Source: Thiothrix unzii
Lineage (GTDB): Bacteria > Pseudomonadota > Gammaproteobacteria > Thiotrichales > Thiotrichaceae
DNA: 64,000 bases
Assembly (NCBI RefSeq): GCF_017901175.1
Contig: NZ_CP072793.1
Location: 2,728,001 to 2,792,000, forward strand
Reading direction: 5' to 3'
The translations under genes and the position numbers were made by a program. Positions 2,734 through 31,128 of this stretch are shown piece by piece (positions within the stretch are counted from its first letter, which is position 1; every line of letters starts with the position of its first letter). The notes beneath the pieces were generated by a model. That model worked only from the letters and a program-made list of their open reading frames with translations, was not told where the DNA came from and made no database searches.

Positions 2734-2796
2734 TAAAAACTCTCCAGACTACCGGAAAAGCCAGCGATTATGCCGGAACCTTTCGCTATTATCAAC

Positions 2797-2825
2797 AAAT
2801 AACCTCTGACCAGCAGAGGTTATTT
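2797..2825 (-). terminator. 12-bp hairpin between rpmJ and rpsM (spc terminator or alpha-operon leader)
   Basis: Perfect inverted repeat: arms 2797-2808 and 2814-2825, 5-nt loop. Read on the minus strand it lies after rpmJ and before rpsM, and the 3' arm ends in TTATTT, so it can act as a weak intrinsic terminator at the end of the spc cluster. The alternative is a structural part of the S4-binding alpha leader known from E. coli. The sequence alone does not decide. Confidence 0.55.
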
Positions 2826-2862
2826 CATAAATCCCATCGCACAGCATCGGGACAAAAACTTA

Positions 2863-2976
2863 CTAGCCTTGACGCTGCTTGTGGCGCGGATCAGAGCAAA
2901 TGATACGTACCACGCCATTTCTGCGGATAACCCGGCAGTTACGGCACAATTTTTTAACTGAAGCTCTAACCTTCAT
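2863..2976 (-). CDS. rpmJ: 50S ribosomal protein L36
   Basis: Small zinc-binding protein L36, 37 residues starting [16 protein letters not shown]. Cys11, Cys14, Cys27 and His32 form the zinc site of the classical (C+) type, so this is not the zinc-free paralogue. The ATG is complementary to 2974-2976 and the stop to 2863-2865. It follows secY by 26 bp and closes the spc cluster. Confidence 0.95.
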
Positions 2977-3002
2977 GACAAAAACTCTCCAAGTGATTCA
3001 AA

Positions 3003-12431: not shown

Positions 12432-13064
12432 TTATGCCTTAACCGACAGCTTGACAACCACATCGCCGTTATTAGCACCTGGAACAGCACCTTTAACTAA
12501 CAACAGATTGCGTTCTGCATCTACACGCACAACTTCCAGGTTTTGCGAAGTGCGTTGTACCGCACCCATGTGACCTGACATTTTCTTACCAGGAAATACG
12601 CGACCCGGCGTTTGGTTTTGACCGATTGAACCCGGCGCACGGTGCGACAAAGAGTTACCGTGGGTGCGATCCTGACCAGCAAAGTGATAACGTTTCAGGA
12701 CACCCTGAAAACCTTTACCTTTGCTTACACCAGTTACGTCAACCTTCTGACCAGCTTCAAACATCGTTACTGCAAGCTCAGAACCCAACTCATAGCCAGC
12801 GACATCATTTGTACGTGACTCACGCACAAACGTACCCGCCGGAACACCGGCCTTGGCGAAATGACCCGCTTCTGACTTAGAAACACGGGAAGATTTTTTC
12901 TCACCTACAGACAACTGAATGGCAGTATAACCATCCGTCTCCGCCGTCTTGACTTGGGAAACGCGGTTTGCAGCAATCTCAAGCACAGTGACGGGGGTTG
13001 AACCTCCATCTTCACCGTATATCCGGGTCATACCTACTTTGCGACCCAGCAGACCGATAGCCAT
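12432..13064 (-). CDS. rplC: 50S ribosomal protein L3
   Basis: L3, 210 residues starting [20 protein letters not shown]. Two in-frame ATGs lie close together; the second, complementary to 13,062-13,064, is 7 nt from an AAGAGG ribosome-binding site and is preferred. [20 protein letters not shown] and [20 protein letters not shown] are the conserved regions. It is separated from rpsJ by 139 bp containing a strong terminator-like hairpin. Confidence 0.97.
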
Positions 13065-13118
13065 TTGCATACCTCTTCAAAATTACTCACGCCGAGCAAC
13101 TTTCATTCTATCTTTTAG

Positions 13119-13147
13119 AAAAACTCGGCTCGACCTAGGTCGAGCCG
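13119..13147 (-). terminator. Intrinsic terminator or attenuator between rpsJ and rplC
   Basis: A perfect 22-nt palindrome at 13,126-13,147 gives a 9-bp GC-rich stem with a CTAG loop. On the minus strand it is followed after two bases by TTTTT (complement of 13,119-13,123). Stem, loop and T-tract match a rho-independent terminator reading in the direction of the ribosomal genes. It would end or attenuate transcription coming from tuf and rpsJ before rplC. Confidence 0.8.
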
Positions 13148-13203
13148 TGGAAAGCCGCGCACTATAGCAGAAATCATTCCGCCGTTAAACTATTTTTTAC
13201 AAA

Positions 13204-13515
13204 TCAGTTAAGTTTGATTTGCACATCAACACCCGCAGCCAAATCCAGCTTCATCAGGGCATCAACGGTCTTGTCAGTCGGATCAATAATATCCATCAGA
13301 CGCTTGTAAGTACGAATCTCATACTGATCACGCGCATCCTTGTCAACGTGCGGTGAAATCAGCACTGTGTAACGCTCTATGCGCGTAGGCAGCGGGATTG
13401 GCCCTTTGACACGCGCACCCGTCCGCTTGGCTGTCTCGACGATCTCAGTCGCAGAACGGTCAATCAGACGATGATCGAATGCTTTCAGGCGAATACGGAT
13501 TCTTTGATCAGACAT
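13204..13515 (-). CDS. rpsJ: 30S ribosomal protein S10
   Basis: S10 (NusE), 103 residues, as in E. coli, with a small-subunit role and a role in NusB-dependent antitermination. It starts [39 protein letters not shown] is the conserved loop. It is 5 bp after tuf copy 1, and a terminator-like hairpin follows it, so it may behave as the last gene of the str operon rather than the first of S10. Confidence 0.97.
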
Positions 13516-13520
13516 AACTA

Positions 13521-14710
<1,190 letters not shown>

Positions 14711-17766: not shown

Positions 17767-17789
17767 AACAGACCGAAAATCGGTCTGTT
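17767..17789 (-). terminator. Hairpin after rpoC (possible rpoBC terminator or rpsL leader)
   Basis: Perfect 10-bp inverted repeat, arms 17,767-17,776 and 17,780-17,789 with a 3-nt loop, in the rpoC-rpsL gap. Its minus-strand 3' side is followed by GTCTTTATG, a poor U-tract. It lies only 66 bp upstream of rpsL and 88 bp before the rpoC start-of-search region in plus coordinates, so a role in the str leader is also possible. Confidence 0.4.
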
Positions 17790-17876
17790 TGAGGACGACA
17801 GATTTTAGGGGTCGGAAAACCTCATGTCAAGAAAGTTTTCCGTACCAATCACTTAAACCCGACGATGACCGGATAC

Positions 17877-20800
17877 TTAATCGGAATCCATGTCCATCGG
17901 CTCACCGAAACTGATCGTTTCAGTGGGCGCGGGGCGTTCATAAGCAAACTCATTACGCTGACTGCGACGATCATCGTGATACGCCAAACCGGTTCCTGCC
18001 GGAATCAGACGACCCACGATAACGTTTTCTTTCAAGCCACGTAATTCGTCACGCGCTCCACGTACTGCTGCTTCTGTCAGTACACGGGTTGTTTCTTGGA
18101 ACGAGGCAGCGGATACGAAGGAATCCGTCACCAACGAGGCTTTGGTAATACCCATGAGCAAACGCTCAAACGTAATACGCAATTTGCCTTCTTTGTCCAA
18201 ACGTTTATTTTCTTCCACTACGCGCCAGAAATCGCTCTGTTCGCCGCGCAAGAAGTTGCTATCACCCGGATCAATGACTTCCACTTTACGCATCATCTGA
18301 CGGGCGATAACTTCAATGTGCTTGTCATTGATCTTAACGCCTTGCAGACGGTAAACGTCTTGGATTTCCTTGACTTGGTATTCTGCAAGCGCACGCGCAC
18401 CCAGCAAGCGTAAAATATCGTGCGGATTAGGCTCACCGTCAGCAATGGTTTCACCACGGTTGACTTTTTCACCTTCAAACACGTCCAGATTACGCCATTT
18501 CGGAATCAGCTCTTCGTACTGCTCACCGTCTTCACTGGTAATGATGACGCGCTGCTTACCTTTAGTTTCCTTACCAAAGGAGATTGTGCCGGTTTTTTCC
18601 GCCAGAATCGCACCGTCTTTCGGTTTACGCGCTTCAAACAAGTCGGCTACCCGTGGTAAACCACCCGTGATGTCACGTGTCTTAGAGGACGCTTGCGGCA
18701 AACGTGCGATAACTTCGCCGACTTGCACGCTTGCACCATTCGTCGAGCTAACAATCGCCCCGGCTGGCAGTGGGTACTGCACCGGAATTTTTGTGCCTTC
18801 AAAGAATACGCTGTCGCCATTCAAGTCAAGCAAACGCACAGTTGGACGCAATTCGCGGCCTGCCGCAGGACGGTTGCGCGGGTCAATGATTTCAATGGAG
18901 GCCAAACCGGTCATTTCGTCGACTTTGGTTTGTACTGTCACGTTATCAATGAAGTCGCTGAAATCCACACGCCCCGTTACCTCGGAAATAATCGGGTGGG
19001 TATGCGGATCCCATGTCGCCACTTCCTGACCGGCTTGCACTTGCGCGTATTGGTCAACCGACAAAATCGCACCGTAAGTCAGCTTGTAACGTTCTTTATC
19101 ACGCCCGTCAGCATCGACAACGCCCAATTCACCGGAGCGGGATACCACCACCAGTTTGTTTTCTTTGTTGCGAACTGTCTTGACGTTAATCAGGTGCGCC
19201 TGACCGGAAGATTTAACGCAAATACTGTTTTCCGCTGCTGACCGGCTCGCTGCCCCCCCGATGTGGAAGGTACGCATGGTCAACTGAGTACCCGGTTCAC
19301 CGATGGACTGCGCTGCAATAACACCGACGGCCTCACCCTTGTTAACCAAATGCCCACGTGCCAAATCACGACCGTAGCAGTGTTTACACACGCCATAACG
19401 GGTTTCACAGGTAATCGCGGAACGCACGGTGATTTCATCAATCGCCATTGCATCAATCTGCTTGACCCAGCCTTCGTCGAGGAAGGTTCCTGCGGGGATC
19501 AATACTTCGTCACCTTTGGTTACATCCTGCGCAACCACACGGCCTAACACGCGCTCAGCGAGAGCTTCGACCACATCACCACCTTCGATGATAGGACGCA
19601 TCAGGATACCGCTGGTCGTGCCACAGTCATCAATAGTAACAACCATGTCTTGCGCCACATCGACCAAACGACGCGTCAAGTAACCGGAGTTCGCGGTTTT
19701 CAGTGCCGTATCCGCCAAACCTTTCCGCGCACCATGCGTCGAGATAAAGTATTGCAATACGCTCAAACCTTCGCGGAAGTTGGAGGTAATCGGTGTTTCA
19801 ATGATGGAACCATCCGGTTTCGCCATCAAACCCCGCATCCCTGCCAACTGACGAATCTGGGCTGCGGAACCCCGCGCCCCGGAATCCGCCATCATGTAGA
19901 TGGAGTTGAAAGATTCTTGGTAAACCGTTTTACCTTCAGCATCGACAACTTCTTGCTTACCAATTTTTTCCATCATCGCTTTCGCGACTTTTTCATTGGT
20001 ACTCGCCCAGATGTCAACGACCTTGTTGTAACGTTCGCCCTGAGTCACTAAACCGCTGGCAAACTGGTTTTGAATTTCCAATACCGCTGCATCAGCTTCC
20101 GCCAACAATTCGACTTTCTTTTCAGGGATCATCATATCGTCGGAACAGAAAGAAACGCCGGAGCGCGTCGCGTAGCGATACCCGGTGTACATCAGTTGGT
20201 CAGCGAAGATAACCGCTGATTTCAAACCCACCCGACGGTACGATTCATTAATCAGTTTAGAAATCGCTTTTTTCTTCAATACGGTATTGAAGAGTTCAAA
20301 AGGCAAACCTTCCGGCATAATACTGGTCAGCAATGAGCGTCCAACCGTGGTATCAATCAAACGGGTACGCTTGATCAATTCACCGTCTTCGTCTTTGATG
20401 CTGTCAGTAATGCGTACTTTTACTTTGGCGTGTAAAGAGGCATTGCCAGTTTCATAAGCACGTTGCGCTTCCATCGGATCCGCAAACACCATGCCCTCGC
20501 CTTTCGCATTGATGGCATCGCGGGTCATGTAATACAAGCCCAAAACGATGTCTTGCGACGGCACAATAATCGGCTCGCCGTTCGCTGGTGACAGGACGTT
20601 ATTAGTCGCCATCATCAGAGTACGTGCTTCCAACTGCGCTTCCAGTGACAATGGTACGTGTACCGCCATCTGGTCGCCGTCGAAGTCCGCGTTGAACGCT
20701 GAACACACCAATGGATGCAACTGAATCGCTTTACCTTCGATCAGGGTCGGCTCGAACGCCTGAATCCCCAAACGGTGCAAGGTAGGTGCGCGGTTGAGCA

Positions 20801-22064
20801 TGACTGGATGTTCGCGGATAACTTCCGCGAGAATATCCCAAACTTCTGCCGTTTCGCGTTCAACCAGCTTTTTGGCGGCTTTGATCGTTGTCGCCAAGCC
20901 ACGACGCTGTAATTTACCGAAAATAAACGGCTTAAACAGTTCCAACGCCATTTTCTTTGGCAAACCGCACTGATGTAAACGCAGCGTAGGCCCGACCACG
21001 ATAACCGAACGACCAGAGTAGTCGACACGTTTACCCAACAAGTTTTGACGGAAACGACCTTGCTTACCTTTGATCATATCTGACAAAGATTTCAGCGGAC
21101 GCTTGTTAGAACCGGTAATGGCACGACCACGACGACCGTTATCCAGTAACGCATCCACAGACTCTTGCAGCATACGCTTTTCGTTGCGCACGATAATGTC
21201 CGGGGCGTTTAGCTCTAACAAACGCTTCAAACGGTTGTTACGGTTAATAACGCGGCGATACAGGTCATTCAAGTCAGATGTGGCGAAACGCCCACCGTCC
21301 AACGGAACCAAAGGACGCAGATCCGGCGGCAACACAGGCAGCACGGTCATGATCATCCATTCAGGTTTATTGCCAGAACTGAGGAAAGATTCCATCAACT
21401 TCAGACGCTTGCCCAAACGCTTCAACTTGGTTTCGGAACCAGTCTCAGCGATTTCCTCGCGCATCTTAGCGACTTCATCTTTGAGGTCGATAGAACCTAA
21501 CAGTGCGTAAACCGCTTCAGCACCCATACTGGCTTCAAATTCGTCACCGAATTCTTCTACCGCTTCCAGATAAGCCTCATCGCTCAATAACTGGTTGCGC
21601 TCCAGCGTGGTCATGCCCGGCTCGGTGACAACGAAGGTCTCAAAATACAAGATGCGCTCAATGTCACGCAGCGTCATATCCAGCATCAAACCGATACGGG
21701 AAGGCAATGACTTCAAGAACCAAATGTGCGCTACCGGACTTGCCAGCTCAATGTGACCCATGCGTTCACGACGCACTTTGGTCTGGGTTACTTCAACGCC
21801 GCACTTTTCGCACACTACGCCACGGTGCTTCAAACGCTTGTACTTACCGCACAAGCATTCATAGTCCTTAACCGGGCCAAAAATTTTGGCGCAGAACAAA
21901 CCATCACGTTCCGGTTTGAAAGTACGGTAGTTAATGGTTTCCGGTTTTTTCACTTCACCAAACGACCACGAACGGATCACTTCAGGCGAAGCCAAACCAA
22001 CTTTAATCGCGTCGAAATCTTGCGTTTCTTGCTCTTTCTTATGGAAGTTCAATAAATCTTTCAT
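17877..22064 (-). CDS. rpoC: RNA polymerase beta' subunit
   Basis: Beta' subunit, 1395 residues (1407 in E. coli). The N-terminal zinc ribbon is seen as [20 protein letters not shown]; the catalytic magnesium motif is [12 protein letters not shown] in the middle; the second zinc site includes [15 protein letters not shown]; the trigger loop region contains [20 protein letters not shown]. The start [20 protein letters not shown] fits the family. It follows rpoB by 6 bp. Confidence 0.99.
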
Positions 22065-29828: not shown

Positions 29829-31019
29829 TTACGCAATGATCTTAGAAACAACGCCAGCACCAACGGTACGACCACCTTCGCGGATAGCGAAACGCAGACC
29901 GTCTTCCATCGCGATTGGGTTAATCAGCGTAACAACCAATTTAACGTTGTCACCCGGCATAACCATTTCAACGCCTTCTGGCAGTTCGCAAGCACCGGTC
30001 ACGTCCGTAGTACGGAAGTAGAACTGCGGGCGATAGCCTTTGAAGAATGGCGTATGGCGACCACCTTCATCTTTAGACAGAACATAAACTTCTGCTTCAA
30101 ACGTAGTGTGCGGCTTGATTGAACCCGGCTTACACAGAACCTGACCACGCTCAACGTCTTCACGCTTAGTACCACGCAGCAACAAACCAACATTGTCACC
30201 CGCCATACCTTGATCCAACAACTTACGGAACATTTCAACGCCCGTAACAGTAGTCGCTTTAGTTTCGCGGATACCAACGATTTCGATGGTCTCACCAACT
30301 TTAACCAAACCACGCTCGATACGACCAGTAACTACTGTACCACGACCTGAGATGGAGAATACGTCTTCAACTGGCATCAGGAATGTGCCGTCAACTGCAC
30401 GCACTGGATCTGGAATAAAGGTATCGATTGCTTCGATCAAACGTGCGATAGATGGCACACCGATTTCTGACGTATCACCTTCCAAAGCCAGACGCGCTGA
30501 ACCTTGAACGATTGGCGTATCATCACCAGGGAAGTCATAACTGCTCAGCAGCTCACGCAGCTCCATTTCAACCAGCTCTAACAGCTCTGCGTCATCAACC
30601 AAGTCACATTTATTCATGTAAACCAGAACGTAAGGAACGCCAACCTGACGAGACAGCAAGATATGCTCACGTGTCTGTGGCATTGGACCGTCAGCAGCAG
30701 AACAAACCAGAATCGCGCCGTCCATCTGAGCCGCACCCGTGATCATGTTTTTAACATAGTCAGCATGGCCTGGGCAGTCTACGTGTGCGTAGTGGCGTGT
30801 TGCAGATTCATATTCTACGTGCGCTGTGGAGATAGTGATACCACGCGCTCTTTCTTCAGGAGCAGCATCGATTTGATCGTAAGCCTTAGATTCACCACCA
30901 TACAGCTTAGCCTGAACAACCGTCAGTGCCGCCGTCAGCGTGGTTTTGCCGTGGTCAACGTGACCAATCGTGCCGACGTTTACGTGCGTTTTATTACGCT
31001 CAAATTTACCTTTTGCCAT
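29829..31019 (-). CDS. tuf: Elongation factor Tu, copy 2 (intact)
   Basis: Complete EF-Tu, 396 residues. It starts [19 protein letters not shown] at the ATG complementary to 31,017-31,019; upstream in-frame codons run into tRNA-Thr and are excluded. G motifs: GHVDHGKT (19-26), DCPGHADYV (81-89), NKCD (about 136-139). It is the tufB-type locus, flanked by tRNA-Thr and tRNA-Trp. Because copy 1 is frameshifted, this may be the only working EF-Tu gene in the window. Confidence 0.98.
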
Positions 31020-31052
31020 GACCGATAACTTCCCGTTACATTTCTGAATAAT

Positions 31053-31128
<76 letters not shown>

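Follow-up and report, generated by a model that had tools for sequence, protein, structure and literature searches.

A conserved promoter and promoter-proximal hairpin between rpsJ and rplC in Thiotrichaceae suggest an S10 operon control point one gene further along than in Escherichia coli

Feedback control in ribosome synthesis has one of its textbook examples in the S10 operon. Its E. coli leader is about 172 nt long (PMC7186457), and the leader stems D and E are treated in the same paper, PMC8299109 and PMC10578931. A 2024 review (PMC10931766) places L4 control in enterics, Haemophilus and Vibrio and states that Pseudomonas has not conserved an L4 site like that of E. coli. The same review reports that a 23S fragment competes for L4, and PMC7186457 assigns this fragment to domain I. 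For the rimP leader, PMC2965389 proposes NusA as the factor. In PMC7247131 the single mention of rplC is as an archaeal L4 candidate, and PMC11109978 describes an rpsJ motif in Peptostreptococcaceae. No title among the literature matches listed dealt with a promoter or terminator in the rpsJ-rplC spacer, and no earlier description of a GGCCCG-based promoter plus 5' hairpin leader was found among them; subscription literature lay mostly outside the scope of the search, and absence from print is not claimed.

The window (the whole stretch of Thiothrix unzii DNA that was analysed, 64,000 nt) contains the following features around the rpsJ-rplC spacer.

12432..13070, minus strand: rplC (L3, PF00297), first gene of the downstream operon, with rplD (L4, PF00573) next
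13079..13103, minus strand: H2, the second hairpin of the leader, immediately before the ribosome-binding site
13119..13123, minus strand: U-tract TTTTT of the terminator-like element
13126..13147, minus strand: hairpin H1 (9 bp), starting 13 nt past the -10 box, at about +6 to +8 of the predicted transcript
13161..13188, minus strand: sigma70-type promoter of the rplC (S10') operon, TTAACG-16 nt-TATAGT, with TG before the -10 box and GCGCGG after it
13204..13515, minus strand: rpsJ (S10), last gene of the str cluster
13521..14710, minus strand: tuf copy adjoining rpsJ, in two overlapping frames (frameshift)
17767..17830, minus strand: str (rpsL) promoter TTGACA-17-TAAAAT and promoter-proximal hairpin AACAGACCGA-TTT-TCGGTCTGTT with a T-rich tail

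Pfam searches confirmed rpsJ, rplC, rplD, fusA and both pieces of tuf. An earlier reading of the window made from the sequence only had described rpsJ as joined to tuf across a 5-bp gap; this is borne out, with that tuf read in two frames. The two-frame state at 13521-14710 (minus strand) may be a sequencing error in the window copy. A second tuf frame is found at 29829-31097. Among the 16 loci of the genus, a tuf match at the rpsJ-adjacent place is missing in four (L005, L007, L009, L010).

The terminator-like hairpin that the sequence-only reading placed between rpsJ and rplC is present as described. On the minus strand of the spacer the stem CGGCTCGAC-CTAG-GTCGAGCCG occupies 13147..13126 and is followed by AG and then TTTTT. 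The stem consists of nine perfect pairs, seven of them G-C. The GC-rich stem, short loop and U-tract expected of an intrinsic terminator are all found, the U-tract at an offset of 2 nt. The 44-nt H1 RNA folds at -18 kcal/mol, a value equalled by none of 200 shuffles. A scan for T-run hairpins whose stems have 9 bp or more, including 7 or more G-C pairs, gave two sites in 64 kb (H1 and 29811-29780), compared with a mean of 0.5 in 20 dinucleotide shuffles of the window. Within 19 kb (window 9-28 kb) 26 terminator-like sites were found vs. 21.0 expected, and H1 was the richest of them in G-C pairs. Taken by itself, without conservation, H1 is only moderately unlikely by chance; the main evidence for it, which is strong, is its conservation in 16/16 genomes of the genus. 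In its own genome the element is single-copy, the next matches having E-values of 0.22 (the same palindrome on the opposite strand) and 0.45. A search of the window and 38 loci against Rfam release 15 returned only tRNAs above the gathering score; this is weak evidence, as the E. coli S10 locus (L288) was equally matchless. Another terminator-like repeat in the window (CCTCTG/CAGAGG) lies in the intergenic region 2734-3002 (minus strand), before the gene at 2377-2733, and is followed by a CATAAT box and GGCTTTTCCGG, a GGCTTT-type start.

Directly upstream of H1 there is a promoter-like sequence which the sequence-only reading had passed over. Its -10 box (13166..13161) ends 13 nt before the H1 stem. 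By count the promoter is unremarkable: it scores 9 of 12 consensus matches, and 17 such matches were found in 19 kb compared with 19.1 expected. Its conservation is clearer. Four of the six -10 columns are invariant across 41 aligned family sequences, and in the genus the box is TATAAT or TATAGT in 16/16 genomes, followed immediately by GCGCGGCTTTC in 15 of them. At this promoter the genus of the window mostly has TATAATGCGCGGCTTT, against TATAATGCGCGGGCTT in the S10 promoter region of E. coli. The element resembles a promoter with a GC-rich discriminator, with a predicted transcription start near 13155. A boxA-like reading of the first transcribed bases (L118 and L122: CGCTCTTTAC) was set aside, since the predicted start would exclude it. 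Folding of the predicted leader RNA gives H1, then a small stem, then H2 next to the ribosome-binding site. No antiterminator pairing with the upstream spacer was seen when that region was folded. Differences between genera in the H2 stem look compensatory, as judged by eye and uncounted.

Conservation was followed through Thiotrichaceae in 57 genomes with rpsJ (57 of the 63 in the order search). All 16 genomes of the genus possess promoter, hairpin and T-run, and the loop is variable. At least five T are present in the eight bases past the stem in 15 of the 16, and L017 has four. The sequence-only reading had proposed comparing this spacer among relatives, and with the hairpin kept throughout the genus an objection from non-conservation fails. 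In the family as a whole a clear hairpin was detected in 52/57 loci (51 by script; L132 by eye, its -10 box lying outside the pattern), with at least five T in 46 of these 52 and four T in the other six. The hairpin of L112 is imperfect, and L122, L124, L127 and L129 lack a clear one; at L122, L127 and L129 both stem and T-run are missing. Among clear-hairpin loci the stem begins 10-14 nt past the -10 box in seven genera; in the eighth (g6) this gap is 4 nt. The spacer of genome G056 (locus L131) is identical to that of a Cocleimonas MAG (L018), Cocleimonas being a member of Thiotrichaceae.

Covariation in the stem was measured on hairpin-bearing loci, in an alignment (A1) of 41 of the 57. Four loci identical over 85 nt were left out, as were those without a clear hairpin (L122, L124, L127, L129), those with very long loops (L123, L125, L133) and near-duplicates (L005, L007, L008, L016, L100). 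Both sides changed in 8 of 11 pairs, and 31 cells showed two-sided change vs. 9.9 in shuffles. Paired cells made up 92.9% of the total, compared with at most 45% in slid alignments. Four of the five covariation measures exceeded 500/500 shuffles, the fifth was reached by 4/500, and all lay above the slid controls; the misaligned rows L136-L138 count against covariation. At one pair U-G replaces U-A in 14/41 sequences, which points to RNA rather than DNA as the conserved form. A palindrome in the DNA bound by a transcription factor is accordingly very improbable: the window copy is a perfect 22-bp palindrome, but in the family the loops range from 3 to 31 nt and the U-G pairs break DNA symmetry while keeping RNA pairing.

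As anatomy, a control region after rpsJ is well supported. The reading preferred here, held with confidence just past even, is an internal S10' promoter with a promoter-proximal attenuator before rplC. A separate promoter in the spacer would drive rplC-rplD and the genes after them, and in Thiotrichaceae the 5'-terminal hairpin with its U-tract would act as a promoter-proximal intrinsic terminator. Polymerase arriving from tuf-rpsJ would halt at H1, and rpsJ is therefore proposed to be part of the str transcript. Transcription begun at the local promoter would produce about 40 nt of leader before either terminating or escaping into rplC, as at an attenuator. As only a few bases separate the start from H1, leaving no room for an antiterminator, escape is proposed to be set by a factor that engages either the newly made hairpin or the paused polymerase; NusA is one candidate, a ribosomal protein another. 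The sequence-only reading had the hairpin splitting rpsJ from rplC, the S10 control point possibly moved and rpsJ possibly transferred to the str operon. The tight packing of rpsJ against str genes and the conserved, control-like spacer before rplC agree with the latter two, and suggest that the control point of the classic S10 operon lies one gene further along than in E. coli. As a divider the hairpin was described incompletely, for it also stands at the probable 5' end of the rplC-operon RNA, directly behind a promoter.

Several observations weigh against an attenuator. In the window AG intervenes between the stem and a U-tract of only five residues. Placed right behind the promoter of essential genes, a strong constitutive terminator would be counterproductive unless it leaks or is regulated. 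L122, L124, L127 and L129 manage without a clear hairpin, and L112 with an imperfect one. The promoter match is unremarkable by count, and no L4-type signal was found in the family.

Outside the family, 109 gammaproteobacterial loci with rpsJ and rplC were surveyed (rpsJ was found in at least 173 of 187 genomes; 28 new loci came from that search, and 80 regions, mostly one per family, were retrieved). L147 and L148 entered through the hairpin model; L149 and L231 were excluded. Of the 109 spacers, 44 measure at most 50 nt and 65 are longer. A hairpin with a GGCCCG/CGGGCC base or a close variant, 8-14 nt past a -10 box, was detected in 22/109 loci (20/107 without the model-derived L147 and L148); the search pattern fixes part of the 5' arm, and counts for pairs 1-7 are thus partly by construction. 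By this motif test 43 of the 65 long spacers show neither promoter nor 5' hairpin. A motif-free scan of the class recovered 25 promoter-proximal hairpins, 19 of them with the motif in the 5' arm. At E 0.001 the model R1 matched 5 of 274 genomes (the window's own, one of its family, two rpsJ-rplC spacers in other families and one site elsewhere). In L149, R1 matched a promoter-proximal hairpin followed by TTTT; the next gene, judging from its translation, is presumably rpsU (S21). In L039, L043, L093 and L183 the spacer carries hairpins like CTCCGATAGGGAG, which are similar to a leader hairpin that precedes rpsJ in Shewanella and Colwellia loci.

Promoter and 5' hairpin are thus spread more widely across the class than the terminator form, since a U-run follows only 6 of the 22 related hairpins and is absent from 16. 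Termination therefore looks like a family-level elaboration, and the ancestral role need not have been termination, which tells against the attenuator and qualifies the earlier description of the hairpin as a terminator. The same counts, together with the motif-free scan, favour a structure serving at the 5' end of the RNA, where the hairpin would shield the rplC-operon mRNA from decay or bind a translation-repressing ribosomal protein, the T-run being secondary. The stem base is also more constant in sequence than pairing needs. This explanation is nevertheless considered unlikely for the family, where the T-run is kept with the hairpin nearly everywhere, the three stemless loci lack the T-run too, and the rpsL leader has the same T-rich tail behind an unrelated stem.

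That rpsL leader was examined at 30 loci (51 genomes had a match), 29 of them readable. Its plan in the family is a promoter, 11-15 nt, a hairpin whose stem is unrelated to H1, and a T-rich tail. Stems of at least 7 bp were called in 24 loci (the call at L287 is spurious), with at least five T in 22 of these. Upstream of rpsL, the frame at 17877-22064, which from its size and place is probably rpoC, has its stop about 47 nt before the -35 box. That two ribosomal operons follow one plan speaks for a use common to the rplC and rpsL leaders. The common plan cuts both ways, as each hairpin lies just past the end of the upstream gene and both could be plain operon ends. H1 might then be the constitutive terminator of str-rpsJ and overlap the promoter that follows, a constant share of local transcripts reading through it. 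Among terminator-like sites in the 9-28 kb region H1 has the most G-C pairs, and no other such site was seen between rpsJ and rplC. A terminator for rpsJ only would be expected upstream of the promoter, however, and H1 is downstream of it (by 10-14 nt in seven genera, by 4 nt in g6), which makes this explanation less probable still than the 5'-end structure.

Signals of the L4 type were sought in the family and in 189 rpsJ-rplC spacers (80 named loci, the best rplC matches and an uneven sample, plus the 109 class loci). In the E. coli S10 leader the core CAATCGTAAT lies in the final hairpin, which from its place is probably the attenuator stem E. For the comparison with the family the core CAATCGNAAT was taken from E. 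coli and Providencia leaders, and none of the 57 family spacers contains it. Both the search pattern CAATC[GA]NA[AG]T and the 23S threshold were chosen after seeing sequences. The pattern is present in 19/189 rpsJ-rplC spacers, where well under one chance match is expected (an estimate from per-position probability), and in 4/189 of the regions upstream of rpsJ, searched to at most 330 nt and less at contig ends. In the rpsJ-rplC spacers of L188, L189, L198, L204, L209, L212, L214, L220, L233, L236, L240 and others, CAATCGNA(A/G)T stands in a hairpin-like stretch. When whole leaders of six class loci were compared to E. coli, the number of shuffles (of 300) reaching the score was 2 for L212, 3 for L236, 21 for L188, 56 for L214, 58 for L233 and 196 for L220. 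Most of them fail this comparison, so that it is the short core which carries the likeness to E. coli in other lineages.

A stretch resembling 23S domain I was found in 22/189 rpsJ-rplC spacers and in 0/189 regions upstream of rpsJ. In 11 Pseudomonadales-type spacers the best match always covers nt 288-313 of the species' own 23S, which we take to be the L4-binding stretch; 0/100 shuffles were as good in ten of them and 3/100 in L064. The other 19 spacers compared, ten of them from the window family, were at shuffle level. Near-copies of domain I occur in L030, L037, L056, L062, L065, L069, L070, L085, L090, L095 and others, and in Marinomonas (L069) the match extends over about 60 nt. The near-copy is a candidate relocated L4 feedback site. 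An E. coli core or a 23S mimic between rpsJ and rplC supports a control point after rpsJ in those other lineages.

In the window family itself these signals are absent from all 57 spacers: neither the E. coli core CAATCGTAAT nor a stem-D-like core (CCGATNNGG or CCCAATCGGGG) was found, and the best score against 23S domain I was 17, the threshold being 26. Mimicry of 23S was rejected for the family, the window species' own 23S having no GGCCCG and one lone GGCTCG. A wider likeness to the E. coli S10 leader, outside the promoter, was also rejected, as none of four family leaders compared was convincing and L134 matched in the -10 region only.

Searching the rpsJ-rplC spacer instead of the region before rpsJ thus reveals conserved leader elements in many lineages, among them the 23S domain I near-copy in relatives of Pseudomonas, and this makes the balancing of L3/L4 synthesis in non-enteric gammaproteobacteria directly testable. 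A broader view is offered tentatively, and as a whole it is held to be somewhat improbable: the gammaproteobacterial S10-operon control region would be a mobile module, often placed between rpsJ and rplC, one form of which would be a promoter with a GGCCCG-based 5' hairpin. In Thiotrichaceae this form would have become an antiterminator-free, promoter-proximal attenuator under a protein factor acting on the ~40-nt transcript.

Among described systems, the E. coli S10 leader shares with the window element its place at the head of an L3/L4 operon, an attenuator hairpin (a proposed one in the window) and a similar promoter. It differs in lying upstream of rpsJ, whereas the window promoter and hairpin follow an rpsJ that is 5 bp from tuf. 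The window hairpin is also only a few bases from its predicted start, compared with a leader of about 172 nt in E. coli (PMC7186457). The rpsL leader attenuators, predicted premature terminators described in PMC2965389, have a similar ribosomal-operon position, and the window family has a terminator-like rpsL hairpin too. Potential antiterminators are noted for them in the same paper, whereas the local transcript of the window has no room for one. The rimP leader of Naville and Gautheret 2010 (PMC2965389) likewise combines a 5' terminator and a conserved stem base with no antiterminator. The gene and the stem motif (GGGc/gCCC in rimP) are different in the window, where the hairpin adjoins the promoter, and the related forms elsewhere, unlike the rimP leader, mostly lack a U-run. 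If the preferred reading is true, the window element represents attenuation by a terminator only a few bases from the start site.
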